From a virus: a DNA stretch of 40,859 nucleotides. Positions 119 to 40,859 of this stretch are shown here, piece by piece. The stretch spans positions 1 through 40,859 of the IMG/VR virus record IMGVR_UViG_3300045119_000249; one strand, given 5' to 3'. The first letter of the stretch is position 1, and each line of letters begins with the position of its first letter. The notes below the pieces were generated by a model. That model saw only the letters and a program-made list of their open reading frames with translations, was not told the DNA's origin and did not search any database. The position numbers were made by a program, and so were the translations under genes.

Positions 119-718
119 ATGAGCATGCAAACTGCATCCGTAAACATCGCAGGCGTCAGTCCGCTACTTCTGAATAATCCGCAAACTGTTGATCGCTTCA
201 ACAAGTTTTCAAAAAAGATTGCGGCCATTACAGCAAAGCGCACCAGTCGCACCGACGAGGATCACTTAGAACTGCGTCGTCTTGAAGTTGAAAGCAAGTT
301 GTATTTTGACGACGCCCTTGGCGTCTACGTACCATCGACTTGGTTGCTTGAAGCAATCGTGAAAAATTCGTTCAAGGTCGCCAAGGTCGGTATGTCGCGC
401 GCCCGTGGTGGAGTTTTTATGACCGCGTCAAAATGCAAGTTGAATTTTGCCGGAATGGAAAAGGTGAAGACCGTTGACGACATTGTGTTGAACGACGAAT
501 TTCACCGCATCATGAACATTCCGCAGGGACAGGTGCGCTTAATCAAAGCCTGCCCGTCCTTTGTCGACTGGAGTTTTACCGCGGTGATCGAATTTGACGA
601 CTCGATCATTGATGCGCGTGCAATCACTCGCACAGTTGAACATGCATCTCGCTACAACGGCTTCGGTGATTTCCGGCCGACCTTCGGTCGTGCGACAGGA
701 ACGGTGCAGCATGCATAA
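119..718 (+). CDS. RAMP/Cas7-like phage protein, function unknown
   Basis: 199 residues. ATG at 119 follows GAAAGGA with good spacing. The family is a recurrent phage protein with an N-terminal beta strand ending in PLLLNN (residues 15-20), a G-x-YVPSTWLLEAI segment (68-80) and a glycine/arginine C-terminus GFGDFRPTFGR (181-191). The last two resemble the helix start (IPGSSLKG-like) and glycine-rich loop (GxGxxxxGFGR-like) of Cas7-type RAMP proteins. That match is my reading of motifs, not a search result. It is the first gene after the structured GCANN array and overlaps its partner gene by 8 bp. No catalytic residues are evident; a nucleic-acid-binding scaffold role is the simplest guess. 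It could equally be an unrelated beta-rich structural fold. Confidence 0.85.
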   Translation: MSMQTASVNIAGVSPLLLNNPQTVDRFNKFSKKIAAITAKRTSRTDEDHLELRRLEVESKLYFDDALGVYVPSTWLLEAIVKNSFKVAKVGMSRARGGVFMTASKCKLNFAGMEKVKTVDDIVLNDEFHRIMNIPQGQVRLIKACPSFVDWSFTAVIEFDDSIIDARAITRTVEHASRYNGFGDFRPTFGRATGTVQHA

Positions 719-1163
719 AACGCTGATTGAGGCACTGAAAAAACGCGGCCTGCTGAAATATGGCGCCGTGTTCTCTGGTGACTTGTTGCGTGAGCTAATA
801 GGCGTCCAATTGCCGACCCTTGACGATTTGGTCGGCCTTGATGCTCACGGAATTCGTCGTGCTTACGACAACATCAAGTTAACAGAGCTTGGCGCCGTCG
901 ACACGCTGCGCACACACCTGCTTGATGAGGGAAAGTATCTGCAACAGGCAAACGGCGACTTTCGGATTCTGTTACCGAATGAGAACGTGCGTCAGGCAGA
1001 ACTTTACATGCAGAGCGGTGACCGCAAATTAAGTCGTGCGGCCAAACTATTACGCAACACGCCGAAGCTGGTCGACGAAGATGCAGACCAATTACAGGCG
1101 CGCATCATGATGAAGCGTGAAGGCTTAAGCGAACGCAGGCGAAGAGACAACCACGCGCCTTGA
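711..1163 (+). CDS. Partner of the RAMP-like protein, hypothetical
   Basis: 150 residues. Start ATG at 711 lies inside the end of the previous gene (8-bp overlap), with AGGA at 697-700 as ribosome-binding site; the frame is open further upstream but without a good start. It is mostly alpha-helical, with an N-terminal segment (about residues 5-30) that could be a winged-helix recognition unit, a conserved-looking GKYLQQANGDFRILLP stretch, and a basic tail (SERRRR). I recall similar proteins next to the RAMP-like family in other phages, but have not checked. The overlap implies co-translation, so the two probably act together. It is followed directly by an intrinsic terminator. Confidence 0.82.
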   Translation: MHKTLIEALKKRGLLKYGAVFSGDLLRELIGVQLPTLDDLVGLDAHGIRRAYDNIKLTELGAVDTLRTHLLDEGKYLQQANGDFRILLPNENVRQAELYMQSGDRKLSRAAKLLRNTPKLVDEDADQLQARIMMKREGLSERRRRDNHAP

Positions 1164-7917: not shown

Positions 7918-8007
7918 ACTTTAGGCTTCACGGGTTGCAACAATGCGCAACACTGAAACCGTCAATTTAGCGGCTTGATTCTGGAAAAGCAAGGGACGTA
8001 TGCGACT

Positions 8008-8052
8008 TACAGCGATTTGCAGCGACCTACAGAAAGCTACAGCGAGTAGCAG
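8008..8052 (+). repeat. Five NNCAG motifs with 10-bp period
   Basis: TACAG, TGCAG, TACAG, TACAG and AGCAG begin at 8008, 8018, 8028, 8038 and 8048, exactly one helical turn apart; three are followed by CGA. This is a face-of-helix arrangement expected for cooperative protein binding, such as integrase or excisionase arm sites. Confidence 0.6.
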
Positions 8053-27579: not shown

Positions 27580-29199
27580 TCAGACGACAAGCATTTCGAC
27601 CGAGAATTCCGGGTCAATTCTGGCAATGAGGGGATACACGGCCATGAGCATGGCCACGAGACCGTCAATCTTTTGCGTAGCCTTTGATTTGTCCAGCTTG
27701 CGGTCACCGGCTGGGGAAGCCACAACGATTGCCGACGCGGCCCCGAGATTCAACACAGGATGCAAGCCGTGACGGATGCGGCCTTGCAGCAATGCACCTT
27801 CCAATGCATCAACACGCGGGGCCATGTCTTTGAAGCCTTGCCCCACTTCCTGCCAGGCCGCGCCTTGCGCGAAGCCTTCACGGTCTGCCGCTGCTTTCAG
27901 CTCGGCAATGCGCCACCGGTCAAACTGAATCGAATGCACCAGGATGCCGGTCTGTTCAATATGCAAACGCAGATATGCACACACCCAGTCGTAGTCGATG
28001 AGCTTGCCGGGCACAGCGATCAACACCCCGTCATTTACCCACTGCTCATATGGCACGCGTGAAATCAGCGACCGGTCGCGCAATCCCTGCAACGGCGTGA
28101 ATGCAAACGGCTGGACGTGGATATTGCCGTCGTCGTCGGTCTGCGCCATGCAGGCAACGGTCAAGTCCATTTTTTGCGACAAATCTAGCCCGATGTGCAC
28201 GCCCTTTTCGCGGAATATCTCGGGATCAGGCACACCGTTATTTTCTTTCCACACCGTAGGCGCAAGCCACAATCTTTCCAATGCAATACGCTGATTCAGG
28301 ATCAGCGAACGAAACGCGGCCTCTTTGGTTGGCAGACGCTTGGCTTGGAATGCTTGGCGCTCCACGTCCGCACGCGAGCGAAACACGCCAATTGCCGGAC
28401 AGGCCGCGTGCCAGGCTACCGGGTCATCAAGCGCGCAACCGACGGGCGCCATATACAGGTGGCAAACAACATCAGGCTGTGGGTTGCGAATCGCATCGTC
28501 AATCAGGATCGACAGAAAATCCGCGTCGCTTGGCGCCTGCGTGCTGATGATGATTGCAAGCGGATGTTCGTGGGCACCCTGCGCCGTCATCAGCGCGTCA
28601 ATGAACGGGTGAGACGGCCCCAGAATCTGCCCCCACTCATCACCGACAAGTACGGCAGGCGACAAACCCATCGCGCGCCCGGCTTCTGCCGCTAGCGCGT
28701 GGTATTCAATTCCGGTATTCAAGGCAACTATTCGCTTGCCGCTTGAAGTGACCCGCGATAATGTCGACAGCATTGTCGACATTGCTATGCTTTTCTGCAT
28801 GTAGTTGAAGACTAGCGCGGCCTGCTCGCGCGAGAGCGCAGCGGAATTGATACGCGAGTTGCGTGCAGTTAATCCCTCCATGAACATGAAGGCAAGCAAC
28901 AGCGCAGCAATCAGCGCCGTCTTACCTGCTTTGCGGCCGACTGACAGCATTGCAAAGCGCGCCAGCATGTCACCATCGAACAACGCCAGAATGAACACTT
29001 CCTGAAACGGCTCTAACTTCATGAGTTGCCCGACTAGTGGCCCCTCGGGAACAATTATGTATTTTTCGATGAAGGTACAAACGCGCTCACCCGTGGTGCG
29101 CTTGCGCATGGGTACCCGACGCCAAGCCCGCATGACGGGTACATAGCCAGATTTTATTGCCGTAAGTATTTCAAGCGGTAACGCTTGTGGCCCGTTCAC
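27580..29199 (-). CDS. terL: Large terminase, HK97-like
   Basis: About 539 residues using GTG at 29199, with GGAAG six bases before; GTG at 29226 would add nine residues but has poor spacing. Walker A GRKAGKT (about 88-94) and Walker B VLVGDEWG (about 180) define the packaging ATPase. The C-terminal RNase-H-like nuclease shows GLDLSQKMDLT (about 335) with later acidic partners near QFDRWRIAE and KIDGLVAML. It pumps DNA into the prohead and cuts concatemers. The start overlaps the methyltransferase gene. Confidence 0.95.
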   Translation of the reverse strand: MNGPQALPLEILTAIKSGYVPVMRAWRRVPMRKRTTGERVCTFIEKYIIVPEGPLVGQLMKLEPFQEVFILALFDGDMLARFAMLSVGRKAGKTALIAALLLAFMFMEGLTARNSRINSAALSREQAALVFNYMQKSIAMSTMLSTLSRVTSSGKRIVALNTGIEYHALAAEAGRAMGLSPAVLVGDEWGQILGPSHPFIDALMTAQGAHEHPLAIIISTQAPSDADFLSILIDDAIRNPQPDVVCHLYMAPVGCALDDPVAWHAACPAIGVFRSRADVERQAFQAKRLPTKEAAFRSLILNQRIALERLWLAPTVWKENNGVPDPEIFREKGVHIGLDLSQKMDLTVACMAQTDDDGNIHVQPFAFTPLQGLRDRSLISRVPYEQWVNDGVLIAVPGKLIDYDWVCAYLRLHIEQTGILVHSIQFDRWRIAELKAAADREGFAQGAAWQEVGQGFKDMAPRVDALEGALLQGRIRHGLHPVLNLGAASAIVVASPAGDRKLDKSKATQKIDGLVAMLMAVYPLIARIDPEFSVEMLVV

Positions 29200-30427
29200 G
29201 TTCCACTTCCGCAAACGTCCGACCACTGCCTTCCAGGGTTGCCGTCTTGCCGGTGTACTTCTGCCAGCGCATCACGCCAACATCGACGTAGTGCGGGTCT
29301 AGTTCAATTGCACGGCAATATCTACCGAGCATTTCACAAGCGATCAGGCACACACCCGATCCGCTGAAAGGCTCCAACACAATGCCACCTAACGGCGCAC
29401 TGTTTTTTATTGGAATCAGGTACACGCCCACCGGTTTTTGCGTCGGATGCTCACGTTCTTTTGACAGATCACGCGAGACCGTCCACACATCAGATTGCGA
29501 ACGGTCGCCGTACCAACCCGCAGAACCGCCGTTACCTTTCCAGCACCAATACACTTGTTCAAACTGTGAGTGGTAACCATGCTGGCGCAATAAAAACCGT
29601 TCTTTGACCCATATACACAGCCGCGGTTGCATGCGTAAATGATGGTCAAATAATGCCGAGTACATAGGCCCGTTCGCCGTCCCGCCAAAAAAATACAGGT
29701 TGGCGTTCGCGGTCGTGAATTCGATACAGGACACAAAGCTCACCGGAATAGCGGCCTGTGTCTGGTCACCGTCGATGCTTGACCCTTTACCCTTCCTGCT
29801 CGAATGATATGCAACGCCATACGGCGGATCAGTCACCACCAGATCGGCCAAGTCATCGCCAAGCAGGTGCCGGTACGTGTCGCGCTTGAGTGCATCGCCA
29901 CATACCAATCGATGCGTGCCAAGCAACCACACGTCACCGGCTTGGCTAACACACAGCTCCCGTGGCTCTGGCACTTCATCAGGATCGGTCAAGCCTTCTG
30001 AATTCTCACCACCGAGCAGGCGCACCAGATCGTCCGCGGTGAAACCTAACGTCAAGGCGTCGACGCCTTCCTGCGTGAGCGCACGCAGCTCAAGCGTCAG
30101 TTGGTCGGAATCCCACCCGGCATTTTCAGCAATGCGGTTGTCTGCCAGGATCAGCGCACGACGCTGCGTGTCTGACAGGCCAGAGACTTCAAGTGCAGGC
30201 ACTTCGTCCATGCCGAGCAGGCGTGCGGCTTCAATTCGTCCGTGCCCGGCTATGACACGCAGTTCTTCATCGATGAGCACAGGCGACGTCCACCCAAACT
30301 CTTTTATGCTTGCTGCGATTTGTTTAATCTGGTTTTTTGAGTGCGTCCGTGCATTGCCAGGGTAGGGACGTAAATCATCGATGCGCGCGCTACGGGCGCG
30401 GCTGTGCCAAGAGTCCGTGTTCGTCAT
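29171..30427 (-). CDS. ParB-domain/DNA methyltransferase fusion
   Basis: 418 residues. Residues 10-100 are a ParB/Srx-like N-terminal domain (LRPYPGNARTHSKNQIKQIAASI, VIAGHGRIEAARLLGM). A beta-class N6-adenine or N4-cytosine methyltransferase follows: catalytic DPPYG at about 200-204 and SAM-binding EPFSGSG about 160 residues later. The target recognition region lies between. Such fusions commonly sit between small and large terminase and are thought to protect virion DNA from restriction. The target sequence cannot be read from the protein. Confidence 0.93.
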   Translation of the reverse strand: MTNTDSWHSRARSARIDDLRPYPGNARTHSKNQIKQIAASIKEFGWTSPVLIDEELRVIAGHGRIEAARLLGMDEVPALEVSGLSDTQRRALILADNRIAENAGWDSDQLTLELRALTQEGVDALTLGFTADDLVRLLGGENSEGLTDPDEVPEPRELCVSQAGDVWLLGTHRLVCGDALKRDTYRHLLGDDLADLVVTDPPYGVAYHSSRKGKGSSIDGDQTQAAIPVSFVSCIEFTTANANLYFFGGTANGPMYSALFDHHLRMQPRLCIWVKERFLLRQHGYHSQFEQVYWCWKGNGGSAGWYGDRSQSDVWTVSRDLSKEREHPTQKPVGVYLIPIKNSAPLGGIVLEPFSGSGVCLIACEMLGRYCRAIELDPHYVDVGVMRWQKYTGKTATLEGSGRTFAEVERERATSVTA

Positions 30428-31157: not shown

Positions 31158-31448
31158 TCACTCACTCCAATCAGGAGGGAATCCCTGTGCATTGATAGGT
31201 GGTCTATCTGGTGTGCTCTCGATTGCCTGCTTGATGCTGTTGTGATGGTGAGCACATAGCGCCTGCAGGTTGGTCACATCCATTGCCAGGCTAGGGTGTG
31301 TACGCCTGCTCTTTATATGATCCACGTGTGCGTTGCCCTTGCCATGCAAAGGCGCCCCACACATCTGGCACTTCCACCTTGCATTGGCTAGGCACTTGAG
31401 ACGCAGTGCATGCCATTCAGTTGATGAGTAGAAGGTGTCACCCGGCAT
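31158..31448 (-). CDS. HNH endonuclease
   Basis: 96 residues from ATG at 31448, overlapping the methyltransferase end by 11 bp. Zinc-binding CQMCG and LCAHHHNS flank the HNH core HVDHIKSRRTHPSLAMDVTNLQALC, with His-Asp-His as catalytic residues. Stand-alone HNH proteins beside terminase genes in HK97-like cos phages stimulate terminase cutting at cos. Position next to small terminase and the candidate cos region supports that role over a homing endonuclease. Confidence 0.93.
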   Translation of the reverse strand: MPGDTFYSSTEWHALRLKCLANARWKCQMCGAPLHGKGNAHVDHIKSRRTHPSLAMDVTNLQALCAHHHNSIKQAIESTPDRPPINAQGFPPDWSE

Positions 31449-32460
31449 GACCACCACTCCCATACAGCACATCATCTACAGCACGTACAAAGGCCGCGGC
31501 TTGCCCTACATTCAGCGCATTCCCATAGGCGCGCAATAGCTCCACGCGGTTGGATAGCCTTGTAGCCAGCGGGAGTGTTCCGGGTTCAACAGGCCGCCAC
31601 TTTGCGTCGCGACATAACAACCAATCTGCAGCAGACCATGCACCGTGAAGCGCGCCGGACAGGAATTCGTCCGTAGCAGGCTCACCGCTTTCTCCGTCAG
31701 CGCGTCGACGTCCGAAGAGTTCGCCGTCGATTTCAATGTACTCGCACTCGTCTTCAGTTGGGCCGATGCAATCGCAATCAGCGTAGTCAATCCCGCAGTT
31801 GGGGCAATTTCCATCTTCGTCGCACTCGGCACTGAAAACCACGCGGCTAAAACCGCTTGGCGCGGTAACTGATCCGTCCGACTGCGTTTCGTACCGTCCG
31901 GGTTCTTGCCTTCCAGGCTCATGCCCGGTGTGTCCTTCCAGTCCCGAGCCGCTGGCGTAGCCCATCCAGTAAAGGCGTTGTCTGATTTGTGGCGCGCCCG
32001 TGCCCGCTGCGCAGGTATCCAAAGCCCCGCAGACGTAACCCGCGCCGTCCATGTCAGCACATACAACGTCGAGCCAATCAAGGCCGTCCGCGCCCGATAT
32101 CTGTTCGCCAAGCACAACGACAGGTCGACATGCTTCGATAAGTTGGAAAAATGCAGGCCACAGGTCGCGCGCATCTTCGCGTCCCTTGCCCGTGCCAATC
32201 TGGCTGTAGGACTGACAAGGCGGGGAACCAGTCCAAACAGGTCGGTTGCTTCCCCAACCTGCAATTCTGAGTGCGAGTGGCCAACCGCCGATTCCACAGA
32301 AAAAGTGGCATTGCTTGTATTCACGCAGCTCATCGGGGTCAATCTCCGTGATTGATCGTGCGCTTACCGTGCCGGGTGGCAAAAACCCTTCAGCAATTAG
32401 ATTTTTGAGCCATTCACAAACGAACGGGTCATTGTCGTTGTAAAAAATCTGGTCACTCAT
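31438..32460 (-). CDS. DNA cytosine-5 methyltransferase
   Basis: 340 residues. The order of C5-methyltransferase motifs is intact: FFCGIGGWPLAL (I, about 53), GSPPCQSYS with catalytic Cys82 (IV), GEQISG (VI variant of ENV), APQIRQRLYW (VIII) and RAYGNAL with a following helix (X). Between VIII and X lies a short target-recognition region with a Cys cluster (CDEDGNCPNCGIDYADCDC, about 213-231), likely zinc-binding. It probably protects phage DNA from restriction. A second, protein-like ORF lies in the +1 frame on the same strand (32342 to 31512). Confidence 0.93.
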   Translation of the reverse strand: MSDQIFYNDNDPFVCEWLKNLIAEGFLPPGTVSARSITEIDPDELREYKQCHFFCGIGGWPLALRIAGWGSNRPVWTGSPPCQSYSQIGTGKGREDARDLWPAFFQLIEACRPVVVLGEQISGADGLDWLDVVCADMDGAGYVCGALDTCAAGTGAPQIRQRLYWMGYASGSGLEGHTGHEPGRQEPGRYETQSDGSVTAPSGFSRVVFSAECDEDGNCPNCGIDYADCDCIGPTEDECEYIEIDGELFGRRRADGESGEPATDEFLSGALHGAWSAADWLLCRDAKWRPVEPGTLPLATRLSNRVELLRAYGNALNVGQAAAFVRAVDDVLYGSGGHAG

Positions 32461-32819: not shown

Positions 32820-34835
32820 TCACTGCTTGCCCTTGACCGGGTTGAGCCACTGATTTTTCCAGTCACGGTCGACGTCAACCAGTGCCCGAGCTTCAAGCCA
32901 AGCGAGAGCAGCGCGTACCGAATTGCGTGTCAAATTCATCACCGCGGCTGATTCCTGCAAGCTACGTTTTGAATACCTGCGACCTTCCTGTAGCTCGTTT
33001 CGCAGAAATTGCAGCACCTGTTGTGCTTCCATTTCACGTTGTGCTTCGGGACTCACCTTGCTGGCGTTTACCTGTTCAAACCGGAATCCCTCACGGACGA
33101 CGTAAATCGGCTCAGGCGGCCGACAAAAACTCATCTTGGCAAGTACCATCTTGAACCCGGTTTGATCAGCGCCTAGCTCGTATCCGGTGGCGTCCTGCCA
33201 CTCTTTTTCATCAAGGGGAACCAGCACGGTGAGCATGCGCGAGCCATCGGCCATCGATGAGCCGCCACGACCGGCATATTGGTCGACAGCTTTGTCGCGC
33301 GCGTTTGCTTTGCCGGTGTGATGGATGAGTTCGACGCAGGCATTTAGCGCGTTGCGAATCATGCGACACGCTTCGATTAATCCCTGCTCGGAATCATTCA
33401 CGCGCATTTCACCGGTGCCGAAACTCACAGCCGGGTCAAAGATGACCCACGACGGTTCAAACGACGCGCATGCATCGATCAGCGCATTGACGTAAGCCGT
33501 CCAGGGTACGACGACGTCTTCCACAACGGCCGATAGGCGAAAGTGCACGCCCGACAAGTCAAGGATCACCACGCGCTCAAACACGGTCGCCGTATCTTGC
33601 GGTGTCAGGCATTCAGCGCGACAGATTTCCCGCAAGCGTGCGACAAGATTCTCGCGTGCATCTTCGCGCGTAATGAACACCGACCGGCCGGGTTGTTCTG
33701 GCTGGAATCCCCACAGCGGTCGCGCCAGTGCCAGGCGCATGGCTTCGTACAGCGCAAGCGTGGTCTTGCCGGTACCACCTGCTGCGACGCGCACGCGTAC
33801 ATCTGCAAACAGAAAACCGGGAACGATGACGCGGGGTGTGAGCCGTGCAATATCGACTTCGCGCGGCGTTGCAGGCACCAGACGCAGCGCATCGGCAAGC
33901 GGGTCGGATTTCGGGTTTTGCACAATCGCGCTGCTGCTACCGATTTTGACCGCCGGTGCGCGTGGGTTCTGCCAACCTTGCCGCTGTGCTTCCGCGAAGA
34001 CGGCCCCGAAGCCGGTCGCGGTCGGCTGAAACCCGTTCCACTTCGTTTCTGCCTGATCGGCGTCGAACTTATCGCTGGTCGCGCTCCACTCAAGCCACAG
34101 GTCTTGTCCCGGTGCACCTATCGTTTTCAGCGCCAGACCCATGGCCACCCAATGCGTGTAGCTATCTGCGCTTGTTGCGAACAATGCCAGGCGCAGGTCG
34201 CGCAAGGTGTGGTCGGTCACTTGCGTGACAGGTTGCAATGATTCGCTAGCCTGCTTGCCGGGTGAATGCAGCGGCAATAACGTGCCTTCGACGAAGTCTG
34301 CAAGATCAATCAGGTCGTGGTGGTTGAGCGCGTCGCCCGTTAGCGTGAAATAACGACCGGCGCTGTACGCTTCGATACCGGTACCGTTCGCGCCAAGCGA
34401 GCGGAAGGCGCGACCGAAGCCGATGTAGTGACAACCTTTTTTGCTTGGACTGCGTTCGCAATACGTGAACAGCTTTTCACCGATGAATTCCAGCGCCGGG
34501 TGTGCGGCTATGTCGTCCAGATCGATGCCTTGAAAATAGAAACCGGAACCGTCCGGCCCCATGGCGAAACCCAAGCCGGTGCACGGCTTCACGTAGACGC
34601 ACAGGTTGAACGCTTCGATTGCCTGCTCAAGCGTGGCCAGCTTGGCGATGTCTTCCGGTGTGTCCAGATGACCGAAGCGCGGTGAGCCGTCGCAGTAACA
34701 CGGAATCTTGCGCGGCTTGCCGCTGTTCTCGATCATGACCGAACGCCACAGCACGTAGCGTTTGGCCTGCAGGATTTTTTCGGGCAGATTGGCGAAGTCG
34801 TCTAGCGTCAGCATCTTGAAATCCGGGTTAAGCAT
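32820..34835 (-). CDS. Primase-polymerase / RepA-like helicase replication protein
   Basis: 671 residues from ATG at 34835 (AGGTGA upstream; overlaps the VRR-NUC stop by 8 bp). The N-terminal prim-pol domain shows GIDLDD (about 104-108) and RSPSKKGCHYIGF; a PriCT-like segment WVAMGLALKTIG...WLEWSATSDKFD follows. A RecA-type RepA helicase core carries Walker A GGTGKTT (about 353-359) and Walker B SWVIFDPAV. A C-terminal winged helix (SLQESAAVMNLTRNSVRAALAWLEARALV) may bind origin DNA. It probably primes, unwinds and initiates at the adjacent iterons. Primase and helicase in one chain is typical of phage and plasmid replicons. Confidence 0.93.
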   Translation of the reverse strand: MLNPDFKMLTLDDFANLPEKILQAKRYVLWRSVMIENSGKPRKIPCYCDGSPRFGHLDTPEDIAKLATLEQAIEAFNLCVYVKPCTGLGFAMGPDGSGFYFQGIDLDDIAAHPALEFIGEKLFTYCERSPSKKGCHYIGFGRAFRSLGANGTGIEAYSAGRYFTLTGDALNHHDLIDLADFVEGTLLPLHSPGKQASESLQPVTQVTDHTLRDLRLALFATSADSYTHWVAMGLALKTIGAPGQDLWLEWSATSDKFDADQAETKWNGFQPTATGFGAVFAEAQRQGWQNPRAPAVKIGSSSAIVQNPKSDPLADALRLVPATPREVDIARLTPRVIVPGFLFADVRVRVAAGGTGKTTLALYEAMRLALARPLWGFQPEQPGRSVFITREDARENLVARLREICRAECLTPQDTATVFERVVILDLSGVHFRLSAVVEDVVVPWTAYVNALIDACASFEPSWVIFDPAVSFGTGEMRVNDSEQGLIEACRMIRNALNACVELIHHTGKANARDKAVDQYAGRGGSSMADGSRMLTVLVPLDEKEWQDATGYELGADQTGFKMVLAKMSFCRPPEPIYVVREGFRFEQVNASKVSPEAQREMEAQQVLQFLRNELQEGRRYSKRSLQESAAVMNLTRNSVRAALAWLEARALVDVDRDWKNQWLNPVKGKQ

Positions 34836-35319
34836 CGCGGTCACCTGCAAGAAGTTTTTGCACATCGTCGATGGATGTGACGACCGCGGCCAATGCGCCA
34901 AGCCGTGCGCGGTTGTCTAAAAAACGCTGTTGTGCGCTGGTCGCTTTGCGACCGGGCCGCTTCACTTCAAAAAAGAAGGCGCGACCGCCGGGCAAGGTGC
35001 CCGACAGGTCGCTGTGGCCAGCGCTAGAGTTGAAACGGATGTGACGCTCGCCTTCCAGCATCATGCCGCTATTATGACGGGTGACTGAGGCGCCAATAAT
35101 GCGACGCAGATAATCGATTATTGCGGTCTGGATTTCACGCTCGGTCGGGCCGGTGTAGACCGCCGGTCTGGTGCGCGGTTTGTGTTCTTTTGGTGGTGGT
35201 GCGTGAAATAGCGGGTCATCATCTGGAATCGGTGTACCAGTTACGCGCGCCAGACCACGCATGACCGCGGCATTATGCACAATGACTTCCTGCAGGGACA
35301 GCCGTCCTTTGCGCTTCAT
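34828..35319 (-). CDS. VRR-NUC domain nuclease
   Basis: 163 residues. The VRR-NUC core is visible: REIQTAIIDYLRR, then HSDLSGTLPGG (catalytic Asp), FFFEVKRPGRK (Glu-x-Lys) and SAQQRFLDN. In phages this family is encoded beside helicases and is proposed to resolve branched DNA during replication or recombination. All metal-binding residues appear present. The preceding 80 residues are a basic, proline-rich extension. Confidence 0.92.
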   Translation of the reverse strand: MKRKGRLSLQEVIVHNAAVMRGLARVTGTPIPDDDPLFHAPPPKEHKPRTRPAVYTGPTEREIQTAIIDYLRRIIGASVTRHNSGMMLEGERHIRFNSSAGHSDLSGTLPGGRAFFFEVKRPGRKATSAQQRFLDNRARLGALAAVVTSIDDVQKLLAGDRDA

Positions 35320-39631: not shown

Positions 39632-39640
39632 GGGGAAATG

Positions 39641-39904
39641 ATGGACGAAGAACCAGACGTCGGGCAGCAGGCGATAAACAGCTTTTCGCTGTATGCCTTG
39701 AGCATCACCGAACAGGCGATGAAGGTAAACATTGACTCACTTACCCTTGCCTGCGTTTGTGGCCAGGCTGTGAAGTTCTTGACCGCCATTGAAGTCAACG
39801 ATCAGCACAAGGTGGAACCAGACCCTGAGCGGATTTGTGAAGCCTTCAAAACGGTGTACGAAAACGGCGTGATCATGCGTGACGGTCGGCCGTATATGCA
39901 GTAG
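39641..39904 (+). CDS. Small helical protein, distant third paralogue, last gene before the array
   Basis: 87 residues from the second of two adjacent ATGs, better spaced from AGGGGG; starting at 39638 adds one residue. The core TLACVCGQAVKFLTAIEV plus K-EPD-E resembles the tandem paralogues at 1247-1870 (ICGLAVMIY...VEV-K-QEP), suggesting a common origin on both sides of the array. The function is unknown. Pentamer periodicity starts within about 12 bases of its stop codon. Confidence 0.72.
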   Translation: MDEEPDVGQQAINSFSLYALSITEQAMKVNIDSLTLACVCGQAVKFLTAIEVNDQHKVEPDPERICEAFKTVYENGVIMRDGRPYMQ

Positions 39905-39989
39905 AGCAGGACGACGGAAATGACTTGCAATGCACGGAACTGTATCGTAGGGAAATGTATGTCACAGCAACGCATTGAAAAGCAACGCG

Positions 39990-40033
39990 GTAACAGTCTA
40001 TGCAAGTGGGCTGTTATCGGGTGGCTTTCACCC
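39990..40033 (+). repeat. Array repeat 1 (type A)
   Basis: 44 bp. Hairpin 1 stem TAACAG/CTGTTA around the conserved loop core CTATGCAAGTGGG; hairpin 2 GGGTG, GCTTT, CACCC. Preceded by GAAAAGCAACGCG. Confidence 0.85.
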
Positions 40034-40094
40034 AAGGGTATCGCAGCGCAAAGCGACGTAGCGCAGCGCATAGCACCGCAGTGCAGAGTAACGC

Positions 40095-40139
40095 GTCAAC
40101 AGCCTATGCAAGTGGGTTGTTGCCGGGTTGTTTTAACCC
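40095..40139 (+). repeat. Array repeat 2 (type B)
   Basis: 45 bp. Hairpin 1 stem CAACA/TGTTG; hairpin 2 CGGGTT, GTTTT, AACCCG (closing base pair extends to 40140). Same loop core as repeat 1. Confidence 0.85.
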
Positions 40140-40226
40140 GCTAGCATAGCACTGCGTTGTAGTGAAAAGCACGGAAACGCAGGGCAAAGCATAGCGTGGA
40201 AGAAAAGGGCAAAGCAGGGCAACGTG

Positions 40227-40270
40227 GTAACAGCCTATGCAAGTGGGCTGTTATCGGGTGGCTTTCACCC
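40227..40270 (+). repeat. Array repeat 3 (type A)
   Basis: 44 bp. Stem TAACAG/CTGTTA and hairpin 2 GGGTG/CACCC, as in repeat 1. Confidence 0.85.
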
Positions 40271-40351
40271 TGATGAAACGAAGTGCACCGCAGGGAAAAG
40301 CGCGGTAACGATTTGTATCGTAAGGGAACGCACAGAACTGAAAAGCAACGC

Positions 40352-40396
40352 GTCAACAGCCTATGCAAGTGGGTTGTTGCCGGGTTGTTTTAACCC
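40352..40396 (+). repeat. Array repeat 4 (type B)
   Basis: 45 bp. Identical stems to repeat 2 (CAACA/TGTTG; CGGGTT/AACCCG). Preceded by GAAAAGCAACGC. Confidence 0.85.
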
Positions 40397-40482
40397 GATT
40401 GCAAAGCAACACAAAGCAGGGCGGGGCAGTTAAAAGCAACGTAATACATGGTACCGCTACGCAAGGCAATGGAAAGCAACGC

Positions 40483-40527
40483 GTCAACAGCCTATGCAAG
40501 TGGGTTATTGACGGGTTGTTTTAACCC
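40483..40527 (+). repeat. Array repeat 5 (type B variant)
   Basis: 45 bp. Hairpin 1 outer stem GTCAA/TTGAC; hairpin 2 CGGGTT/AACCCG. Preceded by GGAAAGCAACGC. Confidence 0.85.
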
Positions 40528-40648
40528 GAATGCAACGTTCTGAAAAGAGACGCGCCGAATCGCAACACAGATCACCGCAAAGCACTGACACTCACGGCAG
40601 TGCATAGCAGAGCACGGCCACGCAAAGTATTGCAATGGAAAGCAGCGC

Positions 40649-40693
40649 GTCAACGGTCTATGCAAGTGGGTTGTTGACGGGTTGCTTTCACCC
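40649..40693 (+). repeat. Array repeat 6 (hybrid)
   Basis: 45 bp. Hairpin 1 GTCAAC/GTTGAC is perfect; hairpin 2 joins a type B left arm with a type A right arm (GGGTT/CACCC), leaving one mismatch. It looks like a recombinant between the two types. Confidence 0.85.
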
Positions 40694-40732
40694 GGCTGTA
40701 AGGCACCGCAGTACAACGCAATGAAGCGCGAA

Positions 40733-40859
40733 GCACGTCAATGCAAAAAAAGGCAGGCAAAGGTAAGGCAGGTCACAGCACGGCAACGCAAGGCATCGCA
40801 ACCCATTCCAGGGTTGTCACATATTTTTTTAAACTTGAAAGGACAAGATCATGAGCATG
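40733..40859. repeat. Second copy of the 127-bp terminal overlap
   Basis: Exact copy of 1-127, ending just inside the first gene (partial start codon region at 40851). It should be trimmed when the genome is closed. Confidence 0.93.

Follow-up and report, generated by a model that had tools for sequence, protein, structure and literature searches.

A very probable VIPR locus with a GCA-type guide array in a temperate siphovirus

Results

Organization of the locus

The stretch analyzed here (the window) is the 40,859-nucleotide IMG/VR virus record IMGVR_UViG_3300045119_000249. Integrase, repressor, terminase, portal, and tape measure genes were found in it, and judged by its sequence the source phage is a siphovirus with a temperate lifestyle. 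The two ends of the assembly share a 127-bp overlap, positions 1 to 127 being identical to 40733 to 40859, and the circle closes through the array of putative guide RNAs listed in Table 1. Because of this overlap, the array crosses the window junction toward the gene at 119 to 718, and positions 1 to 80 duplicate 40733 to 40812, the end of the last run. Just upstream of the array, a gene on the + strand encodes a DEDDh-type 3'-5' exonuclease (PF10108; 38942 to 39631), with a small gene of no assigned function between it and the array (39638 to 39904). Near the terminase and primase region, the - strand encodes a ParB-like/DNA methyltransferase fusion (29171 to 30427; PHROGs 498 and 620) together with another DNA methyltransferase (31438 to 32460; PHROG 363). 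In the gap past the integrase gene, TRF detected a 10-bp direct repeat (GCGACTTACA-type; 8002 to 8050), where integration or excision proteins may bind.

Table 1. Coordinates of the features assigned to the putative VIPR locus
Feature	Coordinates	Strand	Basis
Putative vrRNA guide tract T1, GHANN units	39917..39991	+	PWM segment score 46.6, unit listing
Two-hairpin 3' tail of T1	39987..40033	+	alignment, fold, covariation
Putative vrRNA guide tract T2, 11 units; phage primase genes are a candidate target	40038..40092	+	unit listing, segment scoring, target scan
Two-hairpin 3' tail of T2	40093..40140	+	alignment, fold, covariation
Putative vrRNA guide tract T3, 16 units	40144..40223	+	unit listing, segment scoring
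Two-hairpin 3' tail of T3	40224..40270	+	alignment, fold, covariation
Putative vrRNA guide tract T4, 15 units	40275..40349	+	unit listing, segment scoring
Two-hairpin 3' tail of T4	40350..40397	+	alignment, fold, covariation
Putative vrRNA guide tract T5, 16 units	40401..40480	+	unit listing, segment scoring
Two-hairpin 3' tail of T5	40481..40528	+	alignment, fold, covariation
Putative vrRNA guide tract T6, 23 units	40532..40646	+	unit listing, segment scoring
Two-hairpin 3' tail of T6	40647..40694	+	alignment, fold, covariation
Putative vrRNA guide tract T7, scored over about 21 units; 1-70 = duplicated end	40698..40802	+	segment scoring
Hairpin and T-rich stretch closing T7 ahead of the vipr start, terminator-like	40798..40817	+	fold
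vipr, 199 aa, predicted RAMP/Cas7-fold protein, ~20 kDa, phrog_4652	119..718	+	profile, AlphaFold, structure search
vap1-like accessory gene, 150 aa, predicted winged-helix-like	711..1163	+	conservation, profile, model
Imperfect T2 match, 17/22 NN positions, in own primase gene (32820-34901, - strand)	33991..34023	+	target scan

The tract is a series of runs with a five-nucleotide period

The region from 39917 to 40812 had a period-5 Fourier score of 2.55 (z = 21), whereas 500 shuffles that preserved dinucleotides gave 0.72 ± 0.09 (maximum, 0.98). In the same region, the remaining periods between 2 and 12 scored 0.45 to 0.97, every 900-bp block in the rest of the window scored at most 1.15 at period 5, and autocorrelation peaks appeared for A, C, and G alike at lags of 5, 10, 15, 20, and 25. 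A sequence-only reading of this DNA had described a strict 5-nt periodicity over about 0.9 kb, to be checked by Fourier analysis or autocorrelation against shuffled controls. The period stands, its peak lying far beyond the shuffles, but the single strict tract does not: the region consists of seven runs, T1 to T7, of about 11 to 24 units each, with six two-hairpin elements of about 48 nt between them. Over the whole tract, 121 in-register G-H-A-N-N units were counted. Position 1 is the best-conserved base (G in 108 of 121; 1.37 bits), followed by position 3 (A in 102 of 121; 1.18 bits), where the misses are mostly G (13). Position 2 is C, A, or T in 79, 23, and 16 units, respectively (0.62 bits), G being avoided, while positions 4 and 5 are near-random (0.13 and 0.03 bits). 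The recount agrees with the earlier figure for A at position 3 (101 of 114 units, misses mostly G). The selection for one base every five that had been proposed from that figure holds for this A but left out the stronger constraint on G at position 1 and the constraint at position 2.

Each two-hairpin element comprises a long hairpin (CAACAGCC...GGTTGTTG type) and then a short hairpin (CGGGTTGTTTTAACCCG type). The spacings between repeat copies are 106, 131, 126, 131, and 166, all of them 1 modulo 5. The element forms the 3' tail of six of the seven guides; T7 ends in a terminator-like hairpin instead. The locus reads as several distinct RNAs in a row, with structured tails at their 3' ends, an arrangement that the sequence-only reading had overlooked.

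The tails covary as RNA helices

Thirty tails were aligned, drawn both from the window and from other loci. In the long helix, a standard pair is kept in 93% of cells, versus 62% with shuffled partners. Both sides have changed in a compensatory manner in 97 cells, versus 30 in the shuffles (0 of 500 shuffles reach 97, a significance somewhat inflated by kinship among the sequences), and double changes occur at 11 of the 13 pairs. A slide control preserves this kinship, and support for the helix still collapses when one side is slid by one to three columns. Because of the covariation and its collapse on sliding, the tails appear to act as RNA, presumably transcribed with the + strand. A search of Rfam returned no family at gathering score and one weak chance match.

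The neighboring gene encodes a predicted RAMP related to Vipr

VIPR (Viral Interference Programmable Repeat) is described in a 2026 preprint (PMC13142463) as a phage-encoded system in which a RAMP protein named Vipr is combined with a vap gene and guide RNAs (vrRNAs). In that account, a vrRNA has 9 to 16 pentanucleotide repeats, each a constant GGY followed by a hypervariable NN, and a structured 3' tail; every VIPR type has GGY/NN "or a related consensus." The NN pairs recognize double-stranded DNA, one target base, usually the codon wobble base, being skipped between pairs, and the complex is a transcriptional repressor that counters competing phages (PMC13142463).

The product of the gene at 119 to 718 belongs to a PHROG, 4652, whose function is not annotated. 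Pfam and NCBIfam searches gave no usable match for it, and PADLOC reported nothing but a weak GajB match. When a profile of 33 relatives was compared with all PDB sequences, the sole match was 36pp, "SUSP1 Vipr protein" (E = 1.1e-32). The single sequence also matches 36pp (E = 6e-16) via the G-loop motif GxGDxRPxFGR, the glycine-rich loop of the window protein being GFGDFRPTFGR. The best Foldseek and VIA-align matches of its AlphaFold model (pLDDT, 93.4) were Cas7-type subunits (type VII Cas7, Csm3, and Cmr4; Z up to 11). By its predicted fold and by its sequence homology to the SUSP1 Vipr, the product is a RAMP, with the RRM core and G-loop expected of a Vipr.

The gene at 711 to 1163 is kept downstream of vipr among relatives, and its profile matches the vap (second gene) of the SUSP1-like clade (probability, 96.6%; E = 6e-10). 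A Foldseek search of its model against the PDB gave winged-helix matches only, all insignificant. No CRISPR-type repeat-spacer array was found in the tract region, and vipr, the vap-like gene, and the upstream exonuclease gene had no Cas family match beyond the generic DEDDh exonuclease.

The NN pairs are hypervariable among close relatives

When five aligned Viprs were used to scan IMG/VR, 45 loci were returned, and the layout recurs in about 40 phage loci. Wherever the flanks of the IMG/VR relatives are long enough, GCANN-type runs lie beside vipr, always on the vipr strand; that the same tract should adjoin the same gene in related phages had been proposed as a check, and it does. Runs of GCANN are also present in phiHSIC and Vibrio phage 1.266.O, and runs of the GGY type occur in distant named phages, namely, Felixounavirus VpaE1 (GGTNN, SUSP1-like), Pseudomonas LESphi2 (GGCNN), and Gordonia Trine (GGC). 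Searches of the region's DNA against known phages, of IMG/VR for the exact tail motif, and of GTDB genomes by pattern for relatives of vipr or the terminase returned nothing. Upstream of vipr in some loci (L013, L015-L020, and L022-L024), the triplet loosens to GAA or GNA (scores of about 14 to 39) and the two-hairpin tails stay, which suggests that within the clade the triplet is free to drift.

To gauge variability, the comparison was limited to pairs of full-length, closely related genes, because the identities ignore gaps. In two such pairs (L043/L044 and L046/L047; vipr DNA identity, 93.5% and 93.4%), the tails are 97 to 100% identical and the GCA positions 0.83 to 1.00, while the NN positions are only 0.25 to 0.62 identical. 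Replacement of NN while the tails and GCA stay argues for a replaceable guide carried in a fixed scaffold, and because of this turnover, NN as a mere spacer and the tract as a decayed repeat are both disfavored. The sequence-only reading had thus passed over the informative part of the unit. Its suggestion that identical subunits of the neighboring RAMP-like (Cas7-related) protein bind at a 5-nt pitch gains support from the RAMP fold, the homology to SUSP1 Vipr, and the period-5 tracts beside the gene in relatives, but it missed the guide role of NN.

Explanations other than a guide array

In TRAP (trp RNA-binding attenuation protein), identical subunits bind a NAG triplet every ~5 nt. An RNA serving purely as a TRAP-like protein-binding scaffold or sponge, with NN only as spacers, would equally be expected to have a fixed triplet and a 5-nt pitch, and near-random NN is in line with it. 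TRAP RNA sites share with the window a triplet repeated at ~5 nt for identical subunits, but TRAP differs in its protein fold, in lacking a hypervariable guide and structured tails, and in having only about 11 repeats. The neighbor here is a RAMP homologous to Vipr and no TRAP; the runs carry covarying 3' tails, a guide-RNA trait; NN turns over wholesale between near-identical phages, with GCA and tails kept; and in the published homologue NN is the guide (PMC13142463). We therefore regard a pure scaffold as very improbable.

Low complexity with a period of 5 could also come from a decayed pentanucleotide microsatellite without selected function, for which we see practically no chance. TRF detects no pentamer array in the tract, the phase is broken by hairpins and then resumes, the triplet is conserved and the adjoining NN is not, and the runs are confined to one strand relative to vipr in tens of phages; the covariation of the tails and the co-occurrence with vipr refute it. 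A binding array acting as DNA (iteron-like, at an origin or centromere) has a similarly negligible likelihood: the tract is non-coding and lies between operons, 5 bp makes half a turn of the helix, and a ParB-like domain is encoded at 29171 to 30427, but the tail helix retains G-U pairs alongside its compensatory changes, as RNA would, and the runs invariably share the orientation of vipr.

Candidate targets of the guides

When the window's own genome was scanned with all guides, no near-perfect site was found for any. Against the collected loci, a 1-nt skip showed no excess over other skips, as is expected because the target set is so small; among loci fetched by guide patterns, only the guides that fetched them stand out. 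Testing the NN pairs for codon-phase composition was uninformative. Four guide patterns (T2, T3, T5, and T6) were then scanned exactly against IMG/VR, a collection of a size in which we estimate about one exact match per pattern by chance. The T3 and T5 patterns had zero matches, and the T6 match was rejected as chance since it stops at the pattern edge.

The T2 pattern had two distinct sites. In the phage primase gene of one relative (L058), T2 read with a 1-nt skip matches at 18 of 18 positions over the nine units searched and at 19 of 22 overall; the site is antisense, encodes the peptide TGYAAVFAE, and has the skipped base at the wobble position. The other site (L059/L060; 21 of 22) lies in an unrelated phage gene resembling a tail protein and could be chance or a real target. 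The best T2 site in the window falls on the homologous codons of its own primase (TGFGAVFAE), the next best site matching at 15 positions, and the own-genome match has a P value of 0.04 against shuffled unit order. Because about one chance match per pattern is estimated, the phage primase gene is a suggestive, unproven candidate target of T2.

Discussion

In all probability, the locus is a VIPR locus of a temperate siphovirus, made up of a guide array, vipr, and a vap1-like gene. The analysis computed here found the repeat structure, hypervariability of NN beside conserved GCA and tails, RNA structure in the tails, a RAMP fold with Vipr homology, vap homology, and co-occurrence of these elements across phages. 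Several points count against it. The triplet is GCA (GHA), versus GGY in the experimentally studied systems, and T6 and T7 have 21 to 24 units, above the published 9 to 16, T1 to T5 (11 to 16 units) being within that range. In the target scans, T3 and T5 had no match, the T6 match was chance, the own-genome match of T2 by itself reached only P = 0.04, and the 1-nt skip showed no excess. The original observation is correct and important, yet it was not of a previously undescribed phenomenon, this kind of system having been described in 2026 (VIPR; PMC13142463).

Transcription, assembly, processing, pairing with a 1-nt skip, and repression are proposed by analogy with the published SUSP1 system. 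The + strand of the non-coding DNA would give rise to about seven small guide RNAs (vrRNAs), each of 11 to 24 G-H-A-N-N units and six of them ending in a two-hairpin structure at the 3' side. The ~20-kDa RAMP (119 to 718) would line each RNA in multiple copies, one subunit per 5 nt, each Vipr subunit gripping the constant triplet, GCA, and displaying the adjoining NN. Taken together, the NN pairs would base-pair with double-stranded DNA, with one skipped base after each pair, and the bound complex, aided by the vap1-like protein (711 to 1163), would block transcription of a competing phage or prophage. Since the phage appears to be a temperate siphovirus, superinfection or prophage competition would be the natural setting for the system.

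The VIPR systems of SUSP1 and P. fulva (type II; PMC13142463, PDB 36pp) are likewise phage-encoded and share with the window a RAMP-fold Vipr homologue, a vap1-like second gene, and a pentanucleotide guide array with hypervariable NN and a structured 3' tail. They differ in their GGY triplet, the window having GCA/GHA, a two-hairpin tail, seven guides all upstream of vipr, and two guides of more than 16 units; the window Vipr is only about a quarter to a third identical to theirs. Class 1 CRISPR effectors (Cas7/Csm3/Cmr4; type VII Cas7) resemble it in the RAMP fold, the G-loop, and a backbone subunit placed along a guide RNA. In contrast to them, the locus is without CRISPR repeats or cas genes, and it has a 5-nt rather than a 6-nt pitch and constant bases inside the guide.

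VIPR is a newly described form of RNA-guided DNA recognition that uses a gapped code and is regarded as an ancestor of CRISPR effectors. In phages of Vibrio and of uncultivated hosts, its constant triplet can apparently be GCA as well as GGY, and the guide bases are replaced with the scaffold and tails left in place. Loci of the GCA and GGY types offer a natural comparison for how Vipr proteins recognize the triplet, and the phage primase is a testable candidate target; what merits further work is the GCA triplet and the candidate target of T2. One possibility, which we hold to be rather doubtful, is that the clade with the GCA triplet forms a VIPR type of its own outside the published seven, with a Vipr that reads a different triplet and with guides (T2) directed against the replication primase in related phages, the phage's own primase site having diverged enough to escape.

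The locus could be recognized as a probable VIPR locus from raw sequence. Vipr homologues of Gordonia, Mycobacterium, Pseudomonas, Vibrio, and Felixounavirus, listed without a functional name, are labeled "hypothetical protein."
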